Origin: a virus
IMG/VR virus record: IMGVR_UViG_3300028399_000016
Location: 1 to 39,300 of that record
DNA: 39,300 nucleotides
Direction: 5' to 3' (one strand)
Below are positions 50 through 39,097 of the stretch, one piece after another (position 1 is the stretch's first letter; each line of letters opens with the position of its first letter). The notes under the pieces are model-generated. The model saw only the letters and a program-made list of their open reading frames with translations. It ran no database searches and was not told the DNA's origin. The position numbers were made by a program, and so were the translations under genes.

Positions 50-78
50 TTGACAACTCCTTACATGCGTGCTAACTT
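50..78 (+). promoter_or_regulatory. Candidate sigma70-type promoter of the rightward block
   Basis: A perfect TTGACA lies at 50-55. A 17-base spacer leads to TAACTT at 73-78, which is preceded by TGC like an extended -10. The -10 box matches only three of six consensus bases. It sits about 50 bases before the first convincing start codon of the rightward operon and no other promoter-like site is visible there. Transcription would start near 85. Confidence 0.55.
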
Positions 79-125
79 TTTGCCTAACATCATCACTCAC
101 AAAATCATTAAAACGGAATGCATCC

Positions 126-593
126 ATGAACGATAATCCTAAAAAGATATTAAAACTCAAAAAGAAAACTGTGCATTTTAAACCAGACAATACCCCTGTT
201 GTTCCATCTTCTGCACTAAAAAAACCTTCATTCATTGATTTAAAAGAAAATGATTTTGCATTAAAAGACAATGCTGTTCTACCTCCCAAAGAACGTTTAA
301 TAGCTTTTGTGCGAGAAACAACAGAAGAAAACCCAGACCACATATTTTTTCTTTCTGCAATGAATCTGAAACAGAGCAAAAACTACATCCAATGTATGAG
401 AACTGAATTATCACGATTCCGTGCAATCATTATTCATGAAAAAAAACGCAAGCCTGTTCCTTTTAAAATGTACACTAAAGAAATTTCTTTAACAGAAAAA
501 GGCTGCAAGATTGTTCTGTCACGCGGAAAAGTTGCTGAAATTTCTGATGAAGCACAAGAAGCCTTGAACATTTTGTCTGGCGATTTTAAATAA
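126..593 (+). CDS. Unknown lysine-rich early protein, 155 aa
   Basis: I do not recognise this protein. The reading frame is open from 69, but that upstream start would lie inside the promoter region. The ATG at 126 is preferred because it follows the predicted transcription start and has a weak purine stretch (CGGAA) upstream. The N-terminal 20 residues are very basic (KILKLKKKT), followed by a Pro/Ser linker and then a more ordered half (about residues 60-155) that begins PKERLIAFVRETTEENPD. The basic start resembles the KKTSFSLKKK stretch of the next gene, so both may bind nucleic acid; that is inference. It is the first gene of the rightward block. Confidence 0.75.
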   Translation: MNDNPKKILKLKKKTVHFKPDNTPVVPSSALKKPSFIDLKENDFALKDNAVLPPKERLIAFVRETTEENPDHIFFLSAMNLKQSKNYIQCMRTELSRFRAIIIHEKKRKPVPFKMYTKEISLTEKGCKIVLSRGKVAEISDEAQEALNILSGDFK

Positions 594-631
594 AACATAT
601 CAATTTTAAAAATTCTTCAAAGGCTCCCATC

Positions 632-1261
632 ATGACTTCAATCAATGATTTATTAAAAAGAAAAAACAATCCTGTGAAAGAGAAAATCGTTCCGAAAAAA
701 ACATCATTCTCTTTAAAAAAGAAATCTGTACCTGAATCTGCTCCTGAATCTGAATCTAAAAAATCTATTCCACTTATATCAGAATCTGAAACCTTAACCT
801 CAGACAACCCTTTTGATTCTTTAGCAGATACATTAAATAACATCGATCAACAGAAACCTATGTTATCTACAGAAACATCCTCTGAACCACTATCTACCCA
901 ATCTTCCGAATCCCAATTTGAAAACCCTACAATCGATGATGTTTCCAATTTTGTTTTTGAAGAACAACCTGATGAAACAGATGAAGCAATCATGCATCAA
1001 TTCTCTACAATGCTTTCCTCACTATCAAAATCTACAGGCGATCAAGTACCAGTCAATCTGGCTAAAAATCTAAAATTCATAAAAACACACGCTTTTCTAG
1101 CGGATATTTTAAAGCCTGAATCTATCTCAATTTTAGTTACAGCATTACGAAAATCTTATTCTTTCACAGTCGATACTAAAACTGAGAAATCCACCAAGAA
1201 AGCTTTGCAGAACAAAAAATTGTCAGAAGTTTCAGACAGTTTAGGTGGATTCAACTTCTAG
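632..1261 (+). CDS. Unknown protein with basic head and acidic Ser/Glu-rich linker, 209 aa
   Basis: I do not recognise this protein. Residues 1-32 are basic and contain KKTSFSLKKK. Residues 33-105 are a low-complexity Ser/Glu/Pro stretch with several ESE repeats, probably disordered. Residues 106-209 look folded and end in a short basic stretch. The layout of basic head, linker and compact C-terminus echoes the gene just upstream, and the pair may be diverged copies or partners. The spacer to the previous gene is 38 bases. No catalytic motif is visible. Confidence 0.75.
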   Translation: MTSINDLLKRKNNPVKEKIVPKKTSFSLKKKSVPESAPESESKKSIPLISESETLTSDNPFDSLADTLNNIDQQKPMLSTETSSEPLSTQSSESQFENPTIDDVSNFVFEEQPDETDEAIMHQFSTMLSSLSKSTGDQVPVNLAKNLKFIKTHAFLADILKPESISILVTALRKSYSFTVDTKTEKSTKKALQNKKLSEVSDSLGGFNF

Positions 1262-1303
1262 TCTTAATTTCAGTCTCAACCTTTATATTAAAAAGGAATT
1301 TCC

Positions 1304-1516
1304 ATGTCAGACACAGACAAAGCAGATATACAAATTGCCTTAAATAACTTTGAAAAGGCAAAAATTCATGCAAAACATTATAATAAATTTTTAACTGGAA
1401 GTGATACCTTTGATAATATATTACATTATGCAATCAAAGAAGCCTTTGCCTCTGGTCAAAAAAGCACTGTAGATAATCAGACTGAAAATACCAGACCCCA
1501 AAAAGTACAATATTGA
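1304..1516 (+). CDS. Small unknown protein, 70 aa
   Basis: Not recognised. The ATG has a good ribosome binding site (AAAAGGA, 6 bases upstream). The protein looks alpha-helical in its first two thirds (ADIQIALNNFEKAKIHAKHY) and has a polar, probably disordered tail. Its place between two replication-block genes and the good translation signal support it as real. No function can be inferred. Confidence 0.7.
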   Translation: MSDTDKADIQIALNNFEKAKIHAKHYNKFLTGSDTFDNILHYAIKEAFASGQKSTVDNQTENTRPQKVQY

Positions 1517-1550
1517 CCCTATACTTCATTCATTTTCTGAGAAACCCTCC

Positions 1551-2480
1551 ATGTCTGTAAAACTAAAATCACTCGAATCGTATCCTATAGATACATTCTA
1601 TATTTCCGATTCTACAATGCAAATGGCAGATACTTGTATGCGCAAATTAGAATTCTCAAAATTTTACAATTACAATCTGCGTACTAGATCTACGGCATCA
1701 GACGGTGGACACGCTTTACATAAAGCTCTAGGTGTTTTTATCTCCACTCGATCAAAAGAAAAAGCAACCTTATCTTTACTTTTATCCCACCCCATAGACC
1801 TCTGTGACAATCCTCTATGGAAATGGTCACTAGAAGCCTGTTACGCAACTTTACTATCTTTAATAAATTATTTCGAGAAACATTCTGAACTTGAAATTGT
1901 ACAAATAGATGGAAAAAACGCCATCGAAGTACCATTTTTAATCAACATAAAACATGGTATTAAAAACTTCATTGACGTGAAATATCGAGGCTATATAGAT
2001 TTCATTTTATACGACCGTTTAAACAATACTTATTTTGTTTTGGATTTAAAAAACTCTGGTCTTAATATCCAAGATTTCACGCCAGTTTTCAAATTCTCAC
2101 CTCAATGCTTGCCCTACGGCTTGGTTTTGGAACGTGCTATGGGAAAAGATTTTTCTTCATTCTATGTCCAGTATCTAGTTGCAAAAGTTGATGTTGTAAA
2201 TGCAAAAGTTACACCTCTAGAATTTGAAAAAACATCTTTAGACGTAGAAGAGTGGACCCGTGATTTGTACATGAAATTAGTCAACATAAAAACATACATG
2301 GACACAAAATGGTTTCCTAGAAAATCAGGTTCATGTGTTGAATGGTCAAGACCTTGTAGGTTTTTCGATCTATGTAGTTTAAGAAACTTAAAAACAATTA
2401 ACTTAATGTTACAGTCCATGGAACAGCCCGAAGCACGGCCTTTTGAACCGTGGATAACTTTAGACTTGGAGATTCAGTAA
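1551..2480 (+). CDS. Cas4/RecB-like PD-(D/E)XK exonuclease with Fe-S cysteines
   Basis: All marks of the RecB/Cas4 nuclease family are visible. GGHALH gives His54. The PD-(D/E)XK core follows as Asp150 (GYIDF), then Asp165-Leu-Lys167 (VLDLKNS). A QxxxY motif is at Gln185-Tyr189. One cysteine near the N-terminus (Cys29) and three near the C-terminus (Cys262, Cys269, Cys275) match the split 4Fe-4S cluster arrangement of Cas4 and AddB nucleases. Family members resect DNA ends. Here the likely partner is the Sak4-like recombinase gene about 650 bases downstream, so I infer a phage recombination module. The Cys262-Cys269 spacing is wider than the usual CxxC, but the last pair keeps the five-residue spacing. 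Confidence 0.85.
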   Translation: MSVKLKSLESYPIDTFYISDSTMQMADTCMRKLEFSKFYNYNLRTRSTASDGGHALHKALGVFISTRSKEKATLSLLLSHPIDLCDNPLWKWSLEACYATLLSLINYFEKHSELEIVQIDGKNAIEVPFLINIKHGIKNFIDVKYRGYIDFILYDRLNNTYFVLDLKNSGLNIQDFTPVFKFSPQCLPYGLVLERAMGKDFSSFYVQYLVAKVDVVNAKVTPLEFEKTSLDVEEWTRDLYMKLVNIKTYMDTKWFPRKSGSCVEWSRPCRFFDLCSLRNLKTINLMLQSMEQPEARPFEPWITLDLEIQ

Positions 2481-2725
2481 TGGAAAATGACCCTAGGGAT
2501 CATATATCAATACACAATCAACTTACAGACGTGCTTAAAGAGGCTGCATGTGAGCCGTGCTCTGGAAGAGGGAAACTAGACGATTCAGATGATGGAGATA
2601 TATATTGCAATCACTGGATATGTCCACACTGCAAAGGTACAGGATTCTCGAAGGAAGGAGAAAAGCTTGTACATAAGTTTAATGCGGCAAAAAGGCGTAA
2701 AAGAAACTTGAGAAACAGAACATGA
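2480..2725 (+). CDS. Small DnaJ-type zinc-knuckle protein, 81 aa
   Basis: Two CxxCxGxG repeats of the DnaJ cysteine-rich type are present: Cys24-x2-Cys27 followed by SGRG, and Cys48-x2-Cys51 followed by KGTG. Together they can hold one zinc ion. No J domain and no C-terminal chaperone domain is present; the tail is strongly basic (KRRKRNLRNRT). The frame is open from 2450, but the ATG at 2480 overlaps the TAA of the nuclease gene by one base and has a GGAGA site, so it is the better start. The role is unknown; a zinc clamp on DNA or on a partner enzyme is inference. The next gene overlaps it by ATGA. Confidence 0.8.
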   Translation: MENDPRDHISIHNQLTDVLKEAACEPCSGRGKLDDSDDGDIYCNHWICPHCKGTGFSKEGEKLVHKFNAAKRRKRNLRNRT

Positions 2726-3087
2726 AATCACTAAAAAAATCTTTACCGCACAATTCACAAATTCAGCTTGCCTTATTTCCTTTGTACACAAATCCACATG
2801 GGTATCTCGAACAAGACTTAGCTTGCCAAGCACTTTTCTTTTATTATTTAAACGCACAACAAACTTATGAACAACGTATAAAAGAGAACTTAGTTTATGA
2901 AGCTGAGCTGGATTCTGGGGTAAACTTGGAACAATCTTTTTTATCCATTGCGCGTTTATACAATGTCCAGCCTGAAAACATGGCTTCTTACTGGCCTTTA
3001 GTCGATAAACAATGTAAATCTTTACAGCTTCCTTTACTTCCTGACACATGGAACTATCGTTTTAAATCACTAATTATACTTCATTAA
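2722..3087 (+). CDS. Unknown protein, 121 aa
   Basis: Not recognised. The start overlaps the stop of the zinc-knuckle gene as ATGA, which implies coupled translation. The sequence is mostly helical with aromatic patches (QALFFYYLNAQQTYEQ) and holds no visible catalytic motif. Its location between a nuclease and a recombinase gene suggests a recombination or replication accessory, but the sequence itself does not show that. Confidence 0.7.
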   Translation: MKSLKKSLPHNSQIQLALFPLYTNPHGYLEQDLACQALFFYYLNAQQTYEQRIKENLVYEAELDSGVNLEQSFLSIARLYNVQPENMASYWPLVDKQCKSLQLPLLPDTWNYRFKSLIILH

Positions 3088-3115
3088 CTTTAGTCATTAA
3101 CTTTAGTCATTAACT
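3082..3115 (+). repeat. 13-bp tandem duplication before the Sak4-like gene
   Basis: The unit CATTAACTTTAGT occurs at 3082-3094 and 3095-3107, followed by a partial third copy CATTAACT. The first copy overlaps the stop codon of the upstream gene. It lies 22 bases before the next start codon. Similar short tandem units occur in other spacers of this genome. Confidence 0.9.
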
Positions 3116-3137
3116 CATCTCTCACAAAGGCCAATCT

Positions 3138-4127
3138 ATGCCCACACTCGAACAAAAAATTGCTGAAAGTTCTACAAATCCACCTTTAATGCGACTCTTT
3201 TTTTATGGATCACCAAAAACGCGCAAAACATGGCTTGCTGGAACTGCCGCAGAAGCGGGTTTCAATGTAATTCTTCTTGATTCTGATCATGGCTACCACA
3301 TTCTTCTAAAACAGCTATCTCTTGCTGCACAAAAACGCTTAATGATTATAGAAGCTCGTGATTCTATAAAAGTACCCACAGCCGCTAATTTCCTTACACG
3401 TTTTTTACGTTTTGGAACTGTAAATTTCGACGAATCCACGCGCTCAATCATAACAAATTCAAAACTTTTAACTCAATCCTGTATCCAACTATCCGTAGAT
3501 TCGCACTTAAACCAAAACACAGTCCTAATCATCGATTCTTACACAGCCCTTGTACGCTCATTGAACCTGGCTTTTCAAAAAGACAATGGTTACGATCCAA
3601 CAGAAAAATTTAATCCAAAAAAACCTGGCGTGCGCGATTCTTTTGGTTGGACAGGCGCTTTAGCTTCTTGGATGCTAGAAAAACTAACCCAATTACCTTG
3701 CCAAGTTATTATAATTGGCCACAAAACTGTTTATGAAAAACATTCTAAAGATCAAAAAACAGTTGAATGGGTACGAACACAAATAAAATCTACATCAGGC
3801 CCACATTCTATGACCTTGGGAGATAAATTTTCAGATATTTTATACTTTGAAAATATATCATCATCCATGACTAAAATATCGTCACGGCCAGAAAAAGATC
3901 AAGAAGGTGGTTGCCGATTAATTCCACCAGCATCATATACATGGGACAAACTCCAGTTCTCTCACATATGTGAATATGCGGGCATCTCTCTACCTTCACC
4001 CTCATTACCTTATTTAAACTTTTCAATCCCAAAACAAAAGGAGCTTAAAGACTTAGATACAGAACAGAAAAAAGGTACTAAAAATCTTTTAATTAAAAAA
4101 ATCAAATCAACTACAGTCTCAATTTAA
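3138..4127 (+). CDS. Sak4-like RecA-fold ATPase (AAA_24 type), probable recombinase
   Basis: The protein has a P-loop at residues 24-31 (GSPKTRKT), a DSDHG segment after strand 2 and a Walker B strand VLIIDS with Asp133. Length and layout fit the phage Sak4/AAA_24 family of single-domain RecA-like ATPases that assist strand annealing. The second glycine of the classical P-loop is replaced by Arg29. The gene sits between a RecB/Cas4-like nuclease and a probable ssDNA-binding protein, which is the usual company of Sak4. A weak AAAGG site lies upstream of the ATG. The last 40 residues are lysine-rich and probably flexible. Confidence 0.75.
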   Translation: MPTLEQKIAESSTNPPLMRLFFYGSPKTRKTWLAGTAAEAGFNVILLDSDHGYHILLKQLSLAAQKRLMIIEARDSIKVPTAANFLTRFLRFGTVNFDESTRSIITNSKLLTQSCIQLSVDSHLNQNTVLIIDSYTALVRSLNLAFQKDNGYDPTEKFNPKKPGVRDSFGWTGALASWMLEKLTQLPCQVIIIGHKTVYEKHSKDQKTVEWVRTQIKSTSGPHSMTLGDKFSDILYFENISSSMTKISSRPEKDQEGGCRLIPPASYTWDKLQFSHICEYAGISLPSPSLPYLNFSIPKQKELKDLDTEQKKGTKNLLIKKIKSTTVSI

Positions 4128-4147
4128 TCATCAAAGGAGCTATTAAA

Positions 4148-4336
4148 ATGCTGGGTAAAGAACTGATTCAGAAAATTCTTGATAACAAACTTTCAGACAA
4201 AGAAATCCGTGTTTATCAAGGAAGTTTAAATGGTTTTGTACAAGAAGAATCTGAAACCTTTGATATCATCGAAGTCATAACTGACACAAATGATTTAACC
4301 GAAGAAGTCTCAGGTGTTTTAATCGTAGACGGATAA
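4148..4336 (+). CDS. Small acidic unknown protein, 62 aa
   Basis: Not recognised. It has a strong ribosome binding site (AAAGGAG, 7 bases upstream) and starts 20 bases after the Sak4-like gene. The protein is acidic, with a helical first half and a beta-rich second half (DIIEVITDTNDL). Size, charge and place suggest a small partner of the recombination module, which is inference only. Confidence 0.7.
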   Translation: MLGKELIQKILDNKLSDKEIRVYQGSLNGFVQEESETFDIIEVITDTNDLTEEVSGVLIVDG

Positions 4337-4405
4337 TTTTTATCCTTCTTTTTTAGTCTCAATCTCTACCAATCTCAATCTTACTCTCAATAAGGAACTA
4401 AGAAA

Positions 4406-4951
4406 ATGAACCAAGAAACAAATGCATCAGTAGAAACTGTAACTGTTGACGACCTGGAACTGTCTTTGGACGAGCTTGCAGGAATTGACCTGTCAGAAAT
4501 CAAAGAAGTTCGTTCTTCTGCAATTCCTGCTGGCAAATTTCACTGGCGTATCACAGATGCAAAACTGGAATCTCGTGAATACTCTCTGGATTACGATGAT
4601 CCATCAAGTGAAAAAATCAATTCACCTGTTTTTGTTTTTGAACTCAAAGCCCAAAATTGCTTTGCATTAATCAATGAAGAACTTGATCCAGAAGATTACA
4701 TGGATGTTGAAAAAATCCATACAATTCGCATCAAGAAATTGAAAAAAGACCTGGGCAAAGCCAAAGCTTTCTTGGTTGATATCGGTCTGGACGGAAACAA
4801 GTCTGTTACTGATCTTGTCAATGAAGCACACGGCATCGAGTTTGTATCAGACATTACAAATCGTGCCAATCCTGACAATCCTGATTTTGTCTTTGCCAAC
4901 CTTGCCAACGTTATGAGCATGGAAAAGTTTGAAGAATCACAGGCAGAATAG
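4406..4951 (+). CDS. Probable phage ssDNA-binding protein, 181 aa
   Basis: The central part (about residues 35-120) is beta-rich and opens with SAIPAGKFHWRITDAKLESR, a layout typical of phage OB-fold-like ssDNA-binding proteins found beside Sak4 recombinases. The N-terminal 35 residues are acidic. A clear site, AAGGAACTAAGAAA, precedes the ATG. The identification rests on the neighbouring Sak4-like and polymerase genes plus overall composition, not on a diagnostic motif, and the classical acidic SSB tip is absent. The gene is followed by triple 10-bp repeats and a stem-loop before the polymerase gene. Confidence 0.5.
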   Translation: MNQETNASVETVTVDDLELSLDELAGIDLSEIKEVRSSAIPAGKFHWRITDAKLESREYSLDYDDPSSEKINSPVFVFELKAQNCFALINEELDPEDYMDVEKIHTIRIKKLKKDLGKAKAFLVDIGLDGNKSVTDLVNEAHGIEFVSDITNRANPDNPDFVFANLANVMSMEKFEESQAE

Positions 4952-4953
4952 AT

Positions 4954-4983
4954 ATCTGTAACGATCTGTAACAATCTGTAACT
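4954..4983 (+). repeat. Triple 10-bp tandem repeat (ATCTGTAACn)
   Basis: ATCTGTAAC followed by G, A and T in turn occurs three times head to tail, directly after the stop codon of the probable SSB gene and directly before a stem-loop. The unit length is close to one helical turn. Confidence 0.9.
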
Positions 4984-4984
4984 C

Positions 4985-5038
4985 AACACAGCGCCGAGTT
5001 TAAAACTTCATCCCAGTTTATTCGGTGCTGTGTTTTTC
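4985..5038 (+). terminator. Stem-loop terminator or attenuator before the DNA polymerase gene
   Basis: AACACAGCGCCGA at 4985-4997 pairs with TCGGTGCTGTGTT at 5022-5034, a 13-bp stem with one G-T pair and a 24-base loop, followed by a T-rich run. It lies inside the rightward operon, so it would terminate or attenuate transcription between the probable SSB gene and the polymerase gene. The long loop makes full termination uncertain. Confidence 0.6.
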
Positions 5039-5050
5039 TATCTCTTTTAC

Positions 5051-5072
5051 AAAGAATCCTTAAAGAATCCTT
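5051..5072 (+). repeat. 11-bp tandem duplication in the polymerase leader
   Basis: AAAGAATCCTT occurs twice in a row directly before the polymerase ATG and occupies the place where a ribosome binding site should be. No GGA-type site is present. Confidence 0.9.
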
Positions 5073-5073
5073 T

Positions 5074-7536
5074 ATGAAAACTGTCTATAAAAAAATCTTA
5101 TGGCTTACTCCAGCAAATTTCACTGGCGGATTGAAATTCACACTAGAAAAGCATCTCAAATCAATGGGTCTAGACTCTGCGCCGATTCATTTAAGATGCT
5201 TTTCAAAAAACTGTCTCAAAAAAACGGGGAAAAAGAACTTTACATGGGATCAGTCTAAATATAAATCTTTTGAAAATGCAATTACAAAATTCAATCCAGA
5301 CTTTATAGTCTGCAATGACACAGCTGCATTAGGATTTTTAACACAAAAATACACCTCTCTAGCCTTAACTCGCGGCTCAATTTACAAATTCAACTCCATT
5401 CCTTTCTTAGTCATCGACTCCATCCACAAAACAAAATCCACATCTACAGGGTCTTGGATTTTTAAACAGGATCTTTTAAAACTAAAACGCTGGATCACAG
5501 CAAAGCAACGTCATCAACAAAAATTCCGTTACAAAGTTTGCGAAAACAAAACAGACCTCGATCAATTAAAAAACTCGCTGTCCGATGCTTTGTTAATCGG
5601 TACGGACATTGAGACATCTGGTCGTGGACGACACGTAAAAATCACATGTTCTGGATATACAGTTTTGTCAAAATCAGGTAAAATTTTCACATGGGTAATT
5701 CCATTCGTAGATACTACAAAATCAGATGGATGTTTTTGGCGCTCTAAAAATGAAGAAATCTATGCTATGAAAACTATGGCATTTGTACACGCAAGTAAAC
5801 CCATAAAAGTTTTACAAAATGGTTCCTATGATGCTACACATGTAATCACATATCACATGCCGTACAACAATTACATTTTAGACACGCTACATTTATTCCA
5901 TTCCATCTATATAGAATCCCCAAAGCGTCTTGACTTTATAACTTCTTTATGCTTAGACTTTTACCGGTATTGGAAAGATGAATCAAAAGAAGCAGAAGAG
6001 GATACAGTAAAAGACATCCAAATACCTCAAACAACTTTTGGATTACGCAACTACTGGCGTTACAATGCGCTTGATTGTTATTATACGCTAATGAATTCTT
6101 TATTCTTATTAAAATTCATCCAACAACCTCAAATGAAATGGGCGCTTGATAACTATCTCAAAGAATTTTCAAATCAAACCGGTCCAGACTTGGCATGCTC
6201 ACTACGCGGATGTAAATGGAACACAAAAATACAAGCAAAATTAAACATGTCTTTGCTACAAAAATCAGAATCTGCGCTAAAAGACCTAAAAACTATGGTT
6301 GGTGATTCAACATTCAATCCCGGCTCACCCAAACAAGTAGCAGAATTGGTCTATGACATTCTAGGAGCTGAACCTATTCCACGTCAAAAAAGAAAAACCG
6401 GCGAACCCGTTTTAAAACTGGTCCAGACTCAGCATCCCTTGCTAAAAAAAATAATCAATCAAATCTGGGAATATAAAAAACCCTTAAACAATGCCTCAAA
6501 ATATGGCGAGCTTCAACTTCTTAATCAACGTTTCATGTACAAAGTGTCTGCCGCTGGAACTGAAACCGGACGCAAAGCTACAAAGTCGTCTGATTTCTGG
6601 CTCGGTTCAAATGTGCAAAATGTGCCTGAATCTATGCGTATAATGTTTGAACCAGATCCAGGATATTTTCTTTTTGATTTTGACTATTCACAATCTGATG
6701 CTTATTTCACAGCCTTTGAAAGTGAAGATCCAAAATTTATGGCAACAATGCTATCTGACAAAGATACACATTGCATTCATGCAGAACATTTCTTTCAAAT
6801 CCCTTATCAAAAACTTGCTGATGCAAAAAAGAATCATGAAGAATGGTGCGTACATAAAACTACTGGTGTGCGTTCTGTAACAAAGCGTGCAGTCTATGGC
6901 GCAAACTATCTCATGGCAGGTTACACGCTTTTCATAACCATGGGACAGGATGCTGTTATTGCAGCGGCTATACATCTAGGTTATAAAGACGCAGGTTCGT
7001 GGAATTTCAAACAATTAGTATTCCTCTGCACCAAACTGATAGAAAAATATTTTGAACTTTACCCCGTCTTACCCGTGTGGTTAACAGAACAAATAGCTAA
7101 AGTATCTGAAAACTCAAACTTGTCAACATGTTATGGCGGTTTAACCAGATTATTTTTCAAAGACTTAAGAACTGATACTTCTGGCCAAAGAGAGCTTGCT
7201 TCTTTTTACGGACAAGGAGGTACAGCTGGTAACATCAACGCATTTATGGCAGATTTTTATTACAACAACCATGATTCATCAGATATAATGTTATTATTTC
7301 AAGTACATGATTCTATTGTTGGTCAAGTAAGAATAGATAAACTAGAGAAATTAATCAAATTGAAATCTCTAATGGAACGCATATGTGAAATCCACGGAAG
7401 AAAATTTATTGTGCCAGTTGAAGGTTCGATAGGTTTAGGTTGGGGAAAAAGAATGCTTGACTGGGATGCAGATATAAAGAAAGAAAAAGTTTTTAAACAC
7501 GACAGAGAGTGGTGGAAGAAATGGAACAAGAAATAA
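5074..7536 (+). CDS. polA: Family A DNA polymerase with 3'-5' exonuclease and UDG-like N-terminal extension
   Basis: Residues 1-150 form an extension that resembles the second half of the uracil-DNA glycosylase fold. Residues 170-340 are the proofreading exonuclease: Exo I Asp178-x-Glu180, Exo II Asn249-x3-Asp253 and Exo III Tyr330-x3-Asp334. The polymerase follows with motif A (DYSQ, Asp537), motif B (Arg600-x3-Lys604-x3-Tyr608-Gly) and motif C (His745-Asp746-Ser747). All catalytic aspartates are kept. Motif C reads HDS where HDE is usual, and motif A reads DYSQSD where DYSQIE is usual. It is the phage replicative polymerase by context. No clear ribosome binding site precedes the ATG, and a stem-loop lies upstream, so expression may be throttled. 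Confidence 0.93.
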   Translation: MKTVYKKILWLTPANFTGGLKFTLEKHLKSMGLDSAPIHLRCFSKNCLKKTGKKNFTWDQSKYKSFENAITKFNPDFIVCNDTAALGFLTQKYTSLALTRGSIYKFNSIPFLVIDSIHKTKSTSTGSWIFKQDLLKLKRWITAKQRHQQKFRYKVCENKTDLDQLKNSLSDALLIGTDIETSGRGRHVKITCSGYTVLSKSGKIFTWVIPFVDTTKSDGCFWRSKNEEIYAMKTMAFVHASKPIKVLQNGSYDATHVITYHMPYNNYILDTLHLFHSIYIESPKRLDFITSLCLDFYRYWKDESKEAEEDTVKDIQIPQTTFGLRNYWRYNALDCYYTLMNSLFLLKFIQQPQMKWALDNYLKEFSNQTGPDLACSLRGCKWNTKIQAKLNMSLLQKSESALKDLKTMVGDSTFNPGSPKQVAELVYDILGAEPIPRQKRKTGEPVLKLVQTQHPLLKKIINQIWEYKKPLNNASKYGELQLLNQRFMYKVSAAGTETGRKATKSSDFWLGSNVQNVPESMRIMFEPDPGYFLFDFDYSQSDAYFTAFESEDPKFMATMLSDKDTHCIHAEHFFQIPYQKLADAKKNHEEWCVHKTTGVRSVTKRAVYGANYLMAGYTLFITMGQDAVIAAAIHLGYKDAGSWNFKQLVFLCTKLIEKYFELYPVLPVWLTEQIAKVSENSNLSTCYGGLTRLFFKDLRTDTSGQRELASFYGQGGTAGNINAFMADFYYNNHDSSDIMLLFQVHDSIVGQVRIDKLEKLIKLKSLMERICEIHGRKFIVPVEGSIGLGWGKRMLDWDADIKKEKVFKHDREWWKKWNKK

Positions 7537-7874
7537 ACAGAAATAGACTAATTTTATCACAGAATCGTATTAGAGGGTATAAATTGGCACATGCATTTAA
7601 TTTTAAGATGAATGACATTTATGTTATTCACAGCATAGAATGTTTAGATAAAATTCGTGGAATAAGATTTCACAGTATGTTTGTGGACATTAAATTTTTT
7701 AACTTAAAAAACGCTTCTGAAATTTACAGCCATGCACGAGAAAGATTGACAGAAAACCATCATATCTACGGAATAATGGACTTAAAAATAATTTTTTCTA
7801 GTTTAAAAGGACAATTTTATTATCCCCGTAAAAATATGTATCCACCTGCAAGTGCAACATTGTCCAAGCCCTAA
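7521..7874 (+). CDS. Unknown protein, 117 aa
   Basis: Not recognised. The frame is open from a GTG at 7509, but the ATG at 7521 has a better spaced purine-rich site (GGTGGAAGAA) inside the end of the polymerase gene and is preferred; both overlap the polymerase stop. The protein is basic with a beta-rich middle (MNDIYVIHSIECLDKI) and no known motif. The overlap suggests coupled translation with the polymerase. Confidence 0.65.
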   Translation: MEQEINRNRLILSQNRIRGYKLAHAFNFKMNDIYVIHSIECLDKIRGIRFHSMFVDIKFFNLKNASEIYSHARERLTENHHIYGIMDLKIIFSSLKGQFYYPRKNMYPPASATLSKP

Positions 7875-8124
7875 CGATATTATATCGTGCGTAGAAATTC
7901 CAGAACCTTTAGTTGCAAACACACTTGAACCTTTAGACATGCCTGACTATACGGCAGATCAATTTTTAAGAACTCTATGTACACCTGCAAAAACGATAAA
8001 ACAAGTGCAGATGTCAAGAAAAGAATTAGCTACTTATTTAGCGCATGAATTAACTAAGCATATATTAGCCTGCTTAGACAATAATGACACAATTATGGGT
8101 TATAAAAAAGATAAAGGAGAATAA
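7852..8124 (+). CDS. Unknown protein, up to 90 aa, start uncertain
   Basis: Not recognised. The longest version starts at a GTG at 7852 inside the preceding gene. The first ATG is at 7939 and would give 61 residues; neither has a convincing ribosome binding site. The C-terminal part is helical (SRKELATYLAHELTKHIL) and ends in a basic tail. The next gene follows after 3 bases. Confidence 0.55.
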   Translation: MQHCPSPNDIISCVEIPEPLVANTLEPLDMPDYTADQFLRTLCTPAKTIKQVQMSRKELATYLAHELTKHILACLDNNDTIMGYKKDKGE

Positions 8125-8127
8125 CAA

Positions 8128-8622
8128 ATGTCAATGTGTAAAGATTGCCCGCATATAATCGGTGACCTATCAGCCCGCGATTGTGCATTTCCTAACTGTG
8201 TAGGAGGTTGGCAGAGAGCTTTTGAAGAGCAAGTTAAGCATACGCAGATGTTAAATCTAAAAGTTGAATTTTTACAAAGACAACTTCTGGAGGCTAATGC
8301 TCGCAATTCTGCTGGCAAGACTTTAAAATGTGTTTTATGTTCAGGAATGAACAGCATACACTCGAATGCGTGCCCGAATAACCAGAAAGTAATAAAGATT
8401 AGCCCAAAAAAAGTAAAAACCTTAACGGATATAAACTCTGAAAAATTTACTGAATGGACTGCCAACCCCTATTTCAACAAAGAAATTGACTGCGAAGAAG
8501 AATTTCCTGTAGTATACGCAAATAAAATTGCTTTTGAATTGGAGGATGGATGTTTATTAATTCAGAAAAAATGTATTGGTCTGCATGAAAATATTAAACG
8601 CTATTTAATTTTACCTGAATAA
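8128..8622 (+). CDS. Two-zinc-site protein with central coiled coil, 164 aa
   Basis: Two sets of metal ligands are visible. The N-terminal set is Cys4, Cys7, Cys19 and Cys24. The second is Cys68-x2-Cys71-x6-His78-x3-Cys82, a zinc-finger-like spacing. Between them, residues 30-60 form a likely coiled coil (FEEQVKHTQMLNLKVEFLQR). The C-terminal 70 residues are acidic and beta-rich. AAAGGAG stands 8 bases before the ATG. I know no family for it. A structural or nucleic-acid-binding zinc protein of the replication block is inference. Confidence 0.75.
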   Translation: MSMCKDCPHIIGDLSARDCAFPNCVGGWQRAFEEQVKHTQMLNLKVEFLQRQLLEANARNSAGKTLKCVLCSGMNSIHSNACPNNQKVIKISPKKVKTLTDINSEKFTEWTANPYFNKEIDCEEEFPVVYANKIAFELEDGCLLIQKKCIGLHENIKRYLILPE

Positions 8623-8649
8623 TTTATACCTTCTGGAACTATCCATTCA

Positions 8650-9924
8650 ATGCCTATAAATGACATAATAAAAAACAAATTCCTGCAAACACATTTAAAA
8701 TATGTCCATAACACCGAATCACCTATTTTAATGCATACATGGTCGGCTATTCTATGTGCAGCAGGTGCTATGTCAAGACATGTTTGGGTTGACTCTGGGG
8801 CAAGACGTTTATATGCAAATAATTACTGTTTACTCGTCGGACCCCCAGGAACCAGAAAAAATTCGGCAATAAATCCAGCAGTTTCATTGCTAAAAAACAA
8901 CACCTCTGTAAAATTCGCCCCTGATGATACTGGCGGCCAACGTCAAGGTTTAATATCGGCTTTAGAAAACTGCACTGACAATCAAATCAAACATGATGCA
9001 GAATCATTATTCGATCTTGATTCCTTTACATCATCTGATCTTGATTCTTTAGGGGCTATAAATTTCAACCTAACTAAAGACAATCCAGATGCTCATTCGC
9101 TTTTCATATCTGCAACAGAGTTCGGATCTTTCTTAGGTCAAGGTTCTGTAGACATGACAAGATTTTTAATTAAAATGTGGGATTGTGAATCTTATAAATA
9201 TTCCTTAAAAAAGGAAGAAACTATATTAAAAGATCCTTTAGTCAACTTACTCGGAGGAACTACATCGTCTGACTTAGCTGCATTATTGCCCGCAGAAGCC
9301 ATAGGCCAAGGTTTTATGTCACGTATAATACTAGTTTTTTCTCCCCGAAAAGCAAAATCTGTTCCGCCTTCAAAATGGTTTTTAGACACAAAATATGAGC
9401 CAGATTTAAAATCCATATATAAATTTCTATCTTATGAAATGAAAGGAGGTATGTCGAAATCGCACGCAGCATGTGAATTAGAAGATCATATTTATAATCA
9501 AAACATATCTTTATCTGACACAAGATTTATCCACTATTCTGAAAGACGCGCAGATCATTTAGCCAAACTTGCAATGGTATTAGCTGCAACAGAAATGCGT
9601 TACGAAATTTCAGATACAGATTATGCCGAAGCAAATGCAATTCTAATCGAAACAGAAAAACATATGACTGACGCTTTAGGAGAATATGGTCTATCACCGT
9701 TGGCAGTCTCAAGACAAAAAATGATTGAATTTATTCAACATGCAAACGGACCTGTAAGCTCAGATATTTTGTGGATTATGTTAAGAAAAGATATGCGCGT
9801 TATTGATTTTAAAAACTCAATTGTAGAATTGATAAATGCAAAGAAAATCATTGAAGTACAAACAGACCATGGACAAGCGTTTGTTTTCAATGACAACATG
9901 GAAAGCCAGTTAGAACATTTCTGA
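8650..9924 (+). CDS. DUF3987-type P-loop ATPase, probable phage replicative helicase
   Basis: The N-terminal helical segment (TWSAILCAAGAMSRHVWV) leads to a P-loop at residues 64-72 (GPPGTRKNS). This is followed by a DDTGGQRQGL segment, a Walker B-like strand with Glu157 (LFISATEFGS) and GFMSRIILVF with a probable arginine finger at Arg225. That order fits the DUF3987 family of phage and plasmid primase-helicase-type proteins. The C-terminal third (about 330-424) is helical with a winged-helix-like end. As in many members, Arg replaces the second P-loop Gly. No separate primase was seen. The ribosome binding site is weak. Confidence 0.7.
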   Translation: MPINDIIKNKFLQTHLKYVHNTESPILMHTWSAILCAAGAMSRHVWVDSGARRLYANNYCLLVGPPGTRKNSAINPAVSLLKNNTSVKFAPDDTGGQRQGLISALENCTDNQIKHDAESLFDLDSFTSSDLDSLGAINFNLTKDNPDAHSLFISATEFGSFLGQGSVDMTRFLIKMWDCESYKYSLKKEETILKDPLVNLLGGTTSSDLAALLPAEAIGQGFMSRIILVFSPRKAKSVPPSKWFLDTKYEPDLKSIYKFLSYEMKGGMSKSHAACELEDHIYNQNISLSDTRFIHYSERRADHLAKLAMVLAATEMRYEISDTDYAEANAILIETEKHMTDALGEYGLSPLAVSRQKMIEFIQHANGPVSSDILWIMLRKDMRVIDFKNSIVELINAKKIIEVQTDHGQAFVFNDNMESQLEHF

Positions 9925-9950
9925 AACGCAACTCATGAGGAATCTTTATC

Positions 9951-10580
9951 ATGCCAAAACTTTTACCTTTACACAAATTTTTCCCCTCTGATGAATATGT
10001 CGGAGTCATGCTTGACATCGAAACCCTAGGTTTAAAATCATGGAAACATGCTATATCGTCTTTTTCTGCTACCAAATTTGATCTTAAAGATGGTGATATA
10101 AAAGATTCTTTACATTTACGTATTCTTACAAGTGACCTGCCTGCAACCAGTATGTGCGAAAAAACATTGCAATGGCGAACAGAAAACAAAGTTGATGAGT
10201 ATGAAAAACCCATCAAGCTTGTAAGAGCCCGTCAAGCTTTTTGCAACCTTTGGGATTTTCTGCGTTCAGGCAATGATGAAAGTACAAAACCCGTAATATT
10301 TACAAACCACACAGAATTTGATATCCCGTTCCTGCAAAGACATCTTGATTCACATTCAAAATCTATACCCTGGAATCACAAACATGTTTTTGATGTCGGC
10401 TCTCTACTATTAGGGCGCGGAGTTTCAAAATCTGAAATGTATGAAGAGGTTTTAAATTCAGAATCTTGGCATGAAAAGAAAGACAGCCTATTTAGCGGAA
10501 GAGACTGGAAGCATGATGCTTTCTATGACACAGTTCTACAAATAGAAGTTTTGATGCAAGGTTTAAATCAAGGAGAGTAA
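9951..10580 (+). CDS. DEDDh 3'-5' exonuclease (Rv2179c-like/DnaQ fold), 209 aa
   Basis: The exonuclease motifs are all visible: Asp22-x-Glu24 (LDIETLG), Asp124 in TEFDIPFL, and the closing His188 and Asp193 in KHDAFYDT. The TLQWR segment after strand 3 matches the T..WW region of Rv2179c-like phage exonucleases. It cuts 3' ends of DNA or RNA; the substrate cannot be told. An ATGAGGA site lies upstream of the ATG. The polymerase has its own proofreading domain, so this enzyme probably has another task such as nucleotide salvage or end processing. Confidence 0.8.
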   Translation: MPKLLPLHKFFPSDEYVGVMLDIETLGLKSWKHAISSFSATKFDLKDGDIKDSLHLRILTSDLPATSMCEKTLQWRTENKVDEYEKPIKLVRARQAFCNLWDFLRSGNDESTKPVIFTNHTEFDIPFLQRHLDSHSKSIPWNHKHVFDVGSLLLGRGVSKSEMYEEVLNSESWHEKKDSLFSGRDWKHDAFYDTVLQIEVLMQGLNQGE

Positions 10581-10581
10581 A

Positions 10582-10896
10582 ATGAATGTTTTGATTATAT
10601 GGAATGAGGTACCGGAAAGAATTTTTGCCAAGAAAGTTTCAATGACAGAGGCTGAATATGAAATTTTCAGACAAGCACATGGAAATTTGCAAAATCTTGC
10701 AGTCAATGAATCAGTAGAAACTATTATAGAGGCACTTTATTCTGCCCTTATGCCAAAGAGACACGTAGCAGAATTTCCTGTCTCTAAATATCTAGCCCAT
10801 ACATACGCAGGTAGATGGGTATTCGATGAAAACGAAGAAGCAATAACAGATATCTCTTCTTGTAACAAATTAATCCTTACAGGAATATCTCTCTAA
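10582..10896 (+). CDS. Unknown protein, 104 aa
   Basis: Not recognised. It starts one base after the exonuclease stop and has a strong site (AAGGAGA). It opens with a beta strand (MNVLIIWNEVPE) and contains a short acidic region before its C-terminal strand. It is followed without spacing by the next gene, so the three genes from the exonuclease onward are probably co-translated. Confidence 0.7.
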   Translation: MNVLIIWNEVPERIFAKKVSMTEAEYEIFRQAHGNLQNLAVNESVETIIEALYSALMPKRHVAEFPVSKYLAHTYAGRWVFDENEEAITDISSCNKLILTGISL

Positions 10897-11151
10897 ATGA
10901 AAAATCTACGTGGAGACCATCCCATATCTGATGATCTATTCAGAACTTTACAATTCTCTTTATCCAGGGATGATTACAATACAATAGTTAAATATGTATT
11001 TGAAGCAGAAGCTGAAAGACGACAGCTTATAATCACAACAACATTGTACGAAGCTTCAAGAAACCAAGTTGATGAAATGATGGAAGGAGTTAGAATAGCC
11101 ACAGAAACTGTGAAACACATTCGTGAAAAACTAAACTGTATTAAAATTTAG
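10897..11151 (+). CDS. Unknown helical protein, 84 aa, last gene of the rightward block
   Basis: Not recognised. The ATG directly follows the preceding TAA. The protein is almost wholly helical and charged, with a probable coiled coil in the second half (ASRNQVDEMMEGVRIATETV). It ends just before the convergent terminator hairpin. No function can be inferred. Confidence 0.65.
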   Translation: MKNLRGDHPISDDLFRTLQFSLSRDDYNTIVKYVFEAEAERRQLIITTTLYEASRNQVDEMMEGVRIATETVKHIREKLNCIKI

Positions 11152-30412: not shown

Positions 30413-30452
30413 TTTATAATTCCTTAGTTGCAATAAAATAATAAATAAAGCT

Positions 30453-30596
30453 TTGACAAGGGGCCCCAGTGCTTTCAATGTTTACGGCTCCTTACGGTCA
30501 CCAGGTATTTCCTTTTCGTCTCCACTTCGTTCCGCCTCAAACTCAAAAAAACCTGTCGCCCTGCAAGGTAGCCTAACATTGGCACTCCCTTGTCAA
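30453..30596. repeat. Inverted pair of TTGACAAGGG promoter-like elements
   Basis: On the plus strand TTGACAAGGG at 30453-30462 is followed by AGTGC and then CAATGTT (to 30482). On the minus strand TTGACAAGGG (30596-30587) is followed by AGTGC and CAATGTTA (to about 30575). The two elements face each other across about 100 bases of a gene-free spacer (30413-30607). Each begins with a perfect -35 hexamer; the minus copy has TAGGCT as a weak -10 at a 15-base spacing. Confidence 0.7.
30545..30569 (-). terminator. Weak intrinsic terminator candidate after the holin gene
   Basis: On the minus strand ACCTTG pairs with CAGGT (one bulged T) around an 8-base loop, followed by seven T. The stem is short. 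It lies 39 bases after the holin stop and between the inverted TTGACAAGGG elements. Confidence 0.4.
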
Positions 30597-30607
30597 TTCT
30601 TTTTTTA

Positions 30608-31018
30608 TTATTTTCTAATGAGAGAAGCCATGAAGTAAAATGAACCTACAGCCAGGGCCAGATTTCCCAGTGAAAAAGCTTCGACAATTGCAATAATATC
30701 TTTCGGATCTGTTTCAAAAATAAGATATCTTATTAATGCTATCCAGAAAGATAAAAGCAAAGATCCCATGATTGACCACGCCAAAATTCGCCGTGTAACT
30801 GACCTGACTGAGTTCTCATCCCGTGTAAGTTTCACGGCTTCCAAAGTTAAATTTAAACTTTTAGCGTTGGCCTCCACGCGCTCTTGTTCAGTGAAATTTT
30901 GTTCGTCGATGAAACCTCCGATACCTTTTGCAACTGTCATTGCTTTTGATATACCTTTAGTTTCCTGATTTCCACCTCCAAACAGTAAACTAATTCCTGC
31001 TTTTAATAATGAAAACAT
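30608..31018 (-). CDS. Holin of the GTA_holin_3TM type, 136 aa
   Basis: The protein has a glycine-rich N-terminal segment (LKAGISLLFGGGNQE), a hydrophilic linker containing GGFIDEQNFTEQERVEANAK, then RRILAWSIMGSLLLSFWIAL as one membrane segment and a second one near the C-terminus (FSLGNLALAVGSFYFMASLI). This matches the three-segment holin family seen in phages and gene transfer agents. It forms the pore step of lysis in the inner membrane. It is the third gene of a lysis cassette with endolysin and a small membrane protein and overlaps the latter by TAATG. Confidence 0.75.
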   Translation of the reverse strand: MFSLLKAGISLLFGGGNQETKGISKAMTVAKGIGGFIDEQNFTEQERVEANAKSLNLTLEAVKLTRDENSVRSVTRRILAWSIMGSLLLSFWIALIRYLIFETDPKDIIAIVEAFSLGNLALAVGSFYFMASLIRK

Positions 31019-37208: not shown

Positions 37209-38039
37209 TTATGCAGATTGAGAATCTTGAGAATCAGAATCTTGCTCGCGCATAGGCGCTGTCTCTGCTATTTTGTCCGCAGGTTTGTCTGCCGTAATCG
37301 CCATGATATCTGTCAAATCGATATTAGTTGTTGACACCGTAACTTCGTGCCGCGTGTTAAGCCAATGCTGTAAGTTACCCGGCTCGATACCGTCCTTATC
37401 AGCCTGCGCGATCATCGAGTTGATAACCATAATCCAGTTATCTTGTGACACAGCCGGAAACTGTTGCTCTGCAAATGCAGCACAGGATAATGCCTGACGA
37501 AGAAGAGCTTTGTTGATAAATGTCAGTCCTTTAGCTTTCAACGCTTTGACATAGATAGCTGCCAGCGAGTTAAACGCCGCCATTGCAGAGGACCGCGAGC
37601 TGGTGATAAAATCGTCGATTTTAAACGGTATCTGTGCCAGCTCCATATCATCCTTGGGCATTGCCGCTGATTTTACAGCCCGGATTAAAATCGTGGATAA
37701 TTGTTTTGCAATCCACAGAGGACCACCGGGTGCGTTTGCTATTGCGTCTACGGACGGTATTGCTGAGATACAAACGTTGAGCACCTGTTTACCGCCACCT
37801 TTGATCAATTTGGTTAGAGGCACAATTGCGATACCGTAATCGTCGGGAAAATCTGCTTCAGGATCAAAATTAAAAACTGGCTCTTGGTCGGACTCCATGC
37901 AGAGATCAACTGCGGTTGCAATTGCGGCTTCGGCTTTTTCCAGATTTTCTGCACCGAAATACTGCTGTTTGATATCCTGCATTGTTGGGGCTGGATCTTT
38001 GGCTTCTGTTGCGGCTTCATTTTCATTTTCTGCGGACAT
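37209..38039 (-). CDS. Unknown acidic protein in its own transcription unit, 276 aa
   Basis: Not recognised. The protein has an acidic, Ala-rich N-terminus, a central Gly/Lys segment (VPLTKLIKGGGKQVLNVCIS) and a polar acidic tail (MREQDSDSQDSQSA), like the tails of abundant DNA-binding or single-strand-binding proteins. Two 60-base stretches I counted are 47% GC, well above most neighbours. AGGAG stands 8 bases before the ATG. It has a TTGACA site upstream and a perfect terminator downstream, so it is monocistronic and probably highly expressed. It opens the leftward block, which may mean early expression. Confidence 0.75.
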   Translation of the reverse strand: MSAENENEAATEAKDPAPTMQDIKQQYFGAENLEKAEAAIATAVDLCMESDQEPVFNFDPEADFPDDYGIAIVPLTKLIKGGGKQVLNVCISAIPSVDAIANAPGGPLWIAKQLSTILIRAVKSAAMPKDDMELAQIPFKIDDFITSSRSSAMAAFNSLAAIYVKALKAKGLTFINKALLRQALSCAAFAEQQFPAVSQDNWIMVINSMIAQADKDGIEPGNLQHWLNTRHEVTVSTTNIDLTDIMAITADKPADKIAETAPMREQDSDSQDSQSA

Positions 38040-38082: not shown

Positions 38083-38110
38083 AGAGTAACATTGTGGGTG
38101 CAGATGTCAA
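38083..38110 (-). promoter_or_regulatory. Candidate promoter of the 276-residue gene
   Basis: On the minus strand a perfect TTGACA (38110-38105) is followed after 16 bases by TACTCT, a weak -10 with three of six matches. AACCGGTT, an 8-bp palindrome, lies just upstream (38122-38129) and could be an operator. Transcription would start about 35 bases before the ribosome binding site. Confidence 0.5.
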
Positions 38111-38183: not shown

Positions 38184-38633
38184 TCCTAACATATCAAGTA
38201 ACATCACGACTAAACCTAATTTACTAACATGGCCCGGCGCTGACCCCCTGTAATTCCTGTTAGTAATAATCATACTTGCCTTTTTTCGGTCAGATTCCAC
38301 TTTCTATTTCACACGGTCAATTATATTCCTCTTTTACACTCTCTAATCTGTGTTTATAGGCTCCAAAAGACGTATATACCCTATATATTATGATTTTAAA
38401 TTTTTTGCGGGGGGTATTAAATTGTTGCTCTCAGAAAAATATGGCTTTTGGAGGCGGATAAAAGCAAGATTGGGGCTCAAAAAGCGGAATATATGGGTTT
38501 GAAGGCGGTGAAACACGGAATTTGGCTGAAAAACGGTGATTATGATTTGGAATTACAGGAATTACAGGGGCACAGGGAAACTCACGTTAGTAAATTAGGT
38601 TAAGTTGTTAGGTTAGGTTATTGGGTGTTAGGA
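38184..38633. repeat. 450-bp degenerate palindrome in the divergent control region
   Basis: Positions pair so that left plus right coordinate stays at 76814-76817 throughout. Perfect blocks are 38213-38228 with 38586-38601 (16 bp) and 38245-38260 with 38555-38570 (16 bp). Shorter blocks are TATATTCC at 38322-38329 with 38486-38493, CTCCAAAAG at 38361-38369 with 38445-38453, and TCCTAACA at 38184-38191 with 38626-38633. I counted 75 matches in 120 ungapped positions for 38245-38364 against 38570-38451. The left arm is pyrimidine-rich, the right arm purine-rich, and the centre is AT-rich. The surrounding 38040-38797 holds no full-size gene. Confidence 0.9.
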
Positions 38634-38709: not shown

Positions 38710-38738
38710 TTGACACAGGATATTATTGTTAGTATACA
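38710..38738 (+). promoter_or_regulatory. Strong sigma70-type promoter of the right operon
   Basis: TTGACA (38710-38715), a spacer of exactly 17 bases and TATACA (38733-38738): six of six and five of six consensus bases. Transcription would start near 38745, just before a GGATGGAG ribosome binding site. It lies outside the right arm of the palindrome. Confidence 0.85.
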
Positions 38739-38760: not shown

Positions 38761-38796
38761 ATGGAACACAAAAAGCGTTTTGACACGGAGACCTGA
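38761..38796 (+). CDS. Possible 11-residue leader peptide
   Basis: The frame MEHKKRFDTET ends in TGA two bases before the next gene. It is preceded by GGATGGAG at about 5 bases, a better site than many genes here have. The ribosome binding site of the next gene lies inside its last codons, so translation may be coupled. It is too short to call with certainty. Confidence 0.4.
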   Translation: MEHKKRFDTET

Positions 38797-38797
38797 T

Positions 38798-39097
38798 ATG
38801 CAAATTAAAAATATTAAAAATATTAAAATGATTATCAATAATTTTGTGCAGCGTTTGAAACACAAGCCTAAAAACAAACTATTGCGCCGAAGGCTTCGCT
38901 TGTGGTTGTACACGTCCAAAAATAATCTAATATATTTACACGAACAAAGATCTGTGGCTTTAAGATTTGACGATTATATTAAGGAAATTAATGTTGATAT
39001 TGATTTTATTGAGGATGAAACGTTATATCTTTACGGGGAAATCATTAGTAAGTTGGATATGTGGACCGAGGTACGCAGTGAGGTAGCAAATCAATGA
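38798..39097 (+). CDS. Unknown basic protein, 99 aa
   Basis: Not recognised. A longer open frame begins at a TTG at 38780, but ATG 38798 with GGAG at 7 bases is better. The N-terminal 45 residues are strongly basic (KHKPKNKLLRRRLRLWLY), the rest is acidic and helical. A nucleic-acid-binding early protein is possible. Its TGA overlaps the next ATG as ATGA. Confidence 0.7.
   Translation: MQIKNIKNIKMIINNFVQRLKHKPKNKLLRRRLRLWLYTSKNNLIYLHEQRSVALRFDDYIKEINVDIDFIEDETLYLYGEIISKLDMWTEVRSEVANQ

Follow-up and report, generated by a model that had tools for sequence, protein, structure and literature searches.

A long imperfect palindrome with arms that evolve together is a candidate bidirectional replication origin in a largely uncultured phage lineage

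What keeps a long imperfect palindrome in place at the point where the two gene blocks of a phage genome diverge? The window analysed here, i.e., the whole stretch of 39,300 bases, is an IMG/VR virus record without end overlap and is therefore possibly incomplete. Its leftward block encodes terminase, portal and major head protein, while the rightward block (genes from 69 to 11151) encodes exonucleases, a family-A DNA polymerase and a primase. As the original prediction from the sequence had placed it, the palindrome lies between leftward and rightward operons, in a 740-bp gap; the leftward gene on one side occupies 37209-38039, and the ORF on the other side reads rightward from 38780 (or from an ATG at 38798). 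That prediction offered four possible roles: a replication origin, a mirrored control region for divergent transcription, a template for a long self-paired RNA, or a palindromic MITE-like insertion. Origins with long palindromes and divergent control regions are each familiar kinds of element, and no published description of this palindrome was found in the literature searched.

The palindrome spans 450 bp (38184-38633), and its symmetry centre was re-found at 38407.5. In the best gapped arm-to-arm alignment, a local alignment to which no strand is assigned, the left arm (38184-38375) pairs with the reverse complement of the right arm (38439-38633) at 75% identity; the alignment has 202 columns, 17 of them gap positions, and agrees with the predicted mirrored arms of at least 190 bases each. 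The top ungapped mirrored segment, which begins 39 bases from the centre on either side and ends at 167, scored 33 and had 81 of 129 positions complementary (63%, where about 62% had been predicted). First-order shuffles of the region scored 11-15 (20 shuffles) and second-order shuffles scored at most 17 (200 shuffles). Predicted folding of either strand was likewise far more stable than that of shuffles (z ~ -8.9). Hence the folding, the self-alignment and the random-sequence control that the original prediction had proposed as checks all set the region apart from shuffled DNA, and a chance origin was rejected; the palindrome in the window is real. Both of the perfect 16-bp blocks noted earlier are present as exact reverse-complement matches: an inner block, CCCCTGTAATTCCTGT, at 38245-38260 with its partner at 38555-38570, and an outer block, AACCTAATTTACTAAC, at 38213-38228 with its partner at 38586-38601, again with no strand assigned. 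The claim that the arms have almost no indels applies to the mid-arm only, because the gapped alignment of the whole arms contains the gap positions given above; in addition, the mirror register shifts by one base beyond about 170 bases from the axis. The related suggestion that spacing is under selection is borne out in that the symmetry is maintained, but indels do occur. The palindrome is present as a single copy in the genome and is the strongest in the whole window (score 116; runner-up 52). The runner-up, at about 30435-30614, has short arms at this gapped score and lies between late genes.

The axis has a distinct composition. An AT-rich centre and a reversal of strand composition, from a C/T-rich left arm to a G/A-rich right arm, are both seen in the sequence, as had been described. 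The axis core (38379-38414, plus strand) consists of CCC, an AT-rich tract (38382-38406, plus strand) that ends in AAATTTTTT, and the G-run GGGGGG (38409-38414, plus strand), and is polar, pointing toward the replication genes. A polar core of the form AAATTTTGA-GGGGGG, directed toward the replication genes, was found at the axis in most members, and of the 30 scored for an A/T tract with a G-run behind it close to the axis, 22 had their best instance on the strand directed at the replication genes. The mean over 35 members showed an AT peak at the axis, i.e., the intergenic AT-rich melting region looked for in a bidirectional origin, together with mirrored GC-rich zones near +/-110-130 bp from it. 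In a scan of viral contigs the exact core AAATTTTGAAGGGGGGTC turned up in three, of which a single one is a palindrome relative; the core alone is thus not diagnostic. The idea of an R-loop, based on outward G-richness of both arms, was dropped as inconsistent across relatives.

Sigma-70-like promoters directed outward lie just outside both arms, each with its -35 element about 300 bp from the axis. Of the two, the leftward promoter (TTGACA-16-TACTCT, 38083-38110, minus strand; AGAGTA at 38083 and TGTCAA at 38105 on the plus strand) was picked out by eye, and its -10 element is weak; the rightward one is TTGACA-17-TATACA (38710-38738, plus strand). Such outward promoters were found outside 17 of 64 arms, compared to a shuffle mean of 5.9 (maximum 11), and inward promoters were rarer than expected (3, against 7.5 in shuffles). 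Outward promoters on both sides are the arrangement of a divergent control region. The leftward gene that adjoins the left arm (37209-38039, minus strand) is the first gene of the structural operon and encodes an orphan protein of 276 aa, family A3, which is kept in relatives at 21-49% identity by alignment, with homologues at 79 loci in a redundant set. This protein had no Pfam or PHROG match, and its predicted structure (a fair model) had no match among known folds; the structure model of the other flanking orphan family, A4, was poor. The first rightward ORF (38780-39097, plus strand; 105 aa from a TTG start, or from the ATG at 38798) is uncertain as to gene identity and matched no known family. 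The second orphan family, with the motif YCxKTG, provides the first rightward gene in several relatives (L004:5773-7002, L005:5533-6756, L037:4979-6385 and L028:4204-5385, all on the minus strand), and no counterpart was recognised in the window, a possibly incomplete record. A search for an initiator among the flanking genes gave no known initiator, and a search for repeated initiator sites in the region gave enriched k-mers but no clear iteron.

Relatives were gathered by terminase from viral contigs and one genome collection. Besides the window, about 28 contigs, all of them distant relatives, have a long palindrome in the intergenic stretch that precedes the structural operon. In G001, G002, G004, G006 and G007, which are complete or near-complete, no other palindrome of the genome scores as high (80 vs 38, 86 vs 38, 60 vs 32, 72 vs 34 and 74 vs 42). 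At 21 of 43 testable loci the palindrome scored at least 40 and was 150-800 bp from the flanking gene; at the remaining ones it was weak, farther off (in several loci because of extra genes) or not clearly present, and the element is thus not universal. The cultured relatives Tiera, PaP2 and Aeromonas P5 gave weak signals only; the divergent gap of Tiera (L033, 43391-44172) contains a direct repeat some 70 bp long along with a weak hairpin. A host search by terminase gave, apart from a distant Kouleothrix match, only two contigs, both from the same Neomarinimicrobiota MAG; the palindrome is present on one of them (L129). Strong palindromes at other locations were seen on a Kouleothrix contig (L130, ~700; score 112) and on L042 (~10220; score 146), where the palindrome is downstream of the terminase and near the contig end. 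Exact end overlaps of 69-141 bases in G001, G002, G004, G005 and G007 suggest circular assemblies of 45-49 kb.

The two arms evolve together within each genome. Arm identity within genomes was 0.57-0.73 (mean 0.64), whereas the same arm compared across genomes gave 0.53-0.55 and shuffled DNA gave 0.53. In a permutation in which arms were re-paired among genomes 2000 times, the maximum was 0.639, compared to 0.672 observed. For the window and L004, whose terminases are 80% identical, the arm scores were 42 and 50 between genomes vs 125 and 106 within. Since the arms match within but not between genomes, it is the symmetry that is conserved and not the sequence. That each phage's own arms match while their sequence differs suggests, from sequence comparison, that the mirror symmetry itself is needed. 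As a function of distance, arm identity is low at the axis, peaks 140-180 bp out and is no higher than background past about 220 bp.

These features point to a bidirectional replication origin inside a divergent control region, a reading that is drawn from sequence and to which we assign a probability of about 0.5. Both halves of it had been among the roles first proposed, and each is supported by the synteny, the AT-rich axis with its polar core, the outward promoters and the coupled evolution of the arms. In the order of events that we would propose, the outward host-type promoters at about +/-300 bp would drive leftward transcription of the structural block and rightward transcription of the replication block; the mirrored arms would hold paired protein sites, or would extrude as a cruciform or fold when single-stranded; the AT-rich axis would melt; the polar A/T tract and G-run would set where, or on which strand, priming starts; and replication forks would depart both ways. 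The keto-skew extremum lies about 0.1-0.9 kb from the palindrome in G001, G002, G006 and G007, where gene direction switches too, and in G005 it is near the divergent gap, confounded by gene direction; the keto skew of G004 does not fit the palindrome position. The turning point of GC skew, in contrast to that of keto skew, is often not at the palindrome. Because gene direction switches at the same place, skew is not independent proof of an origin. More tentatively, the origin or switch could be recognised by shape, as a DNA cruciform of about 400 bp or a single-strand hairpin, with the stem selected for complementarity and the axis core alone conserved.

The outward promoters could also be read without replication. 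Here the region would be a purely transcriptional mirrored control region, the arms being the upstream regulatory regions of two divergent promoters at which a phage or host regulator binds and switches both blocks, while replication begins elsewhere. Promoters stand beyond both arms, each with an arm upstream, and in the window and L004 they are placed symmetrically, which agrees with this; yet binding sites alone would need neither about 200 bp of complementarity per arm nor sequence that has fully diverged at 80% terminase identity, and the polar AT/G core at the axis is left unexplained, so that we regard this account as rather unlikely. The coupled evolution of the arms, lineage by lineage, is likewise what mutational upkeep with little function would give, either through gene conversion or through template switching between the arms of a quasi-palindrome, a documented process of arm homogenisation that was put forward originally for bacteriophages (PMC8604942). 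If template switching were the main cause, arms that lie closest together should match best, yet identity is lowest at the axis and highest 140-180 bp out, so that this is unlikely. Moreover, upkeep of this kind explains neither one syntenic place held over deep divergence nor the core and promoters; we think it improbable as the whole explanation, and template switching may contribute to arm matching.

A long self-paired RNA transcribed from the region, acting as a structured RNA or a decoy, would suit the polar axis core and the very stable fold predicted for either strand. A selected RNA hairpin should show an excess of G-U over A-C mismatches that is greater within than between genomes. 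The window alone seemed RNA-like in this respect (G-U bias 32 vs 16, ungapped), but the bias was gone against the cross-genome control: the G-U/A-C ratio was 1.23 within and 1.16 between genomes (permutation p 0.2), an outcome that fits symmetry at the level of DNA. The two strands also fold similarly relative to shuffles, the favoured strand varies among relatives, few promoters read into the palindrome, inward ones being rarer than in shuffles, and an Rfam search of the region gave no match at the gathering score; this proposed role thus found no support and is very doubtful. A DNA-processing site other than an origin, such as a packaging start or a resolution or termini site, would suit the fact that most relatives have the palindrome within about 2-5 kb of the terminase gene, on its upstream side, but the distance is about 8.5-9 kb in L014 and L015 and several relatives assemble as circles through the palindrome, and we hold this to be very unlikely. 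The MITE-like insertion, for which the palindromic and intergenic nature of the element speaks, was refuted, with practically no chance left to it: the palindrome is single copy with no dispersed related copies, a sequence search of the region in phages gave no DNA match, and relatives share no common sequence and hold it at a fixed syntenic place.

The candidate origin can be set against known systems. Plasmid single-strand origins, Frpo of the F plasmid and integron attC sites, all single-strand elements recognised by their structure, are imperfect palindromes in which the fold is kept more than the sequence; these act on one strand, whereas the phage palindrome favours neither strand consistently. 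In herpes simplex, oriL is a long palindrome between divergent genes. The phage element resembles oriS and oriL in its mirrored boxes around an AT-rich spacer; however, the boxes in herpes simplex are conserved in sequence and bound by a known protein, the sequence of the phage arms is not conserved, and the viruses are unrelated. For herpes simplex oriS, a hairpin in the unwound origin has been described (PMC12543377). According to the available part of their published description, the Aquificae viruses OS3173, GBS41, JC39 and Conch37 are dsDNA viruses of 37-41 kb with a family-A polymerase and two divergent blocks, in which a gap of 750-1,350 bp with predicted stem-loops at the skew switch was proposed as a bidirectional origin (PMC7689252). 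The present phages are likened to them by layout, not by homology: they share the family-A polymerase, the divergent blocks and an intergenic gap with stem-loop potential, but the features set out in that part of the description are repetitive elements with stem-loops and do not include a long palindrome over about +/-200 bp with coupled arm evolution (PMC7689252). A family-wide palindrome that combines fast-changing sequence with conserved symmetry was not found described for this phage lineage.

Where the symmetry of a long non-coding element outlasts the turnover of its sequence, selection on DNA shape, or a specific repair process that acts on it, is strongly indicated; an origin recognised by shape, if true, would belong to a class that is new for phages of this lineage. 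The two conserved orphan genes beside the palindrome are candidate partners of the element, and its natural variants would allow tests of the tolerance and use of long imperfect palindromes. Across a broad and almost wholly uncultured phage lineage, the palindrome can serve to mark the probable origin.
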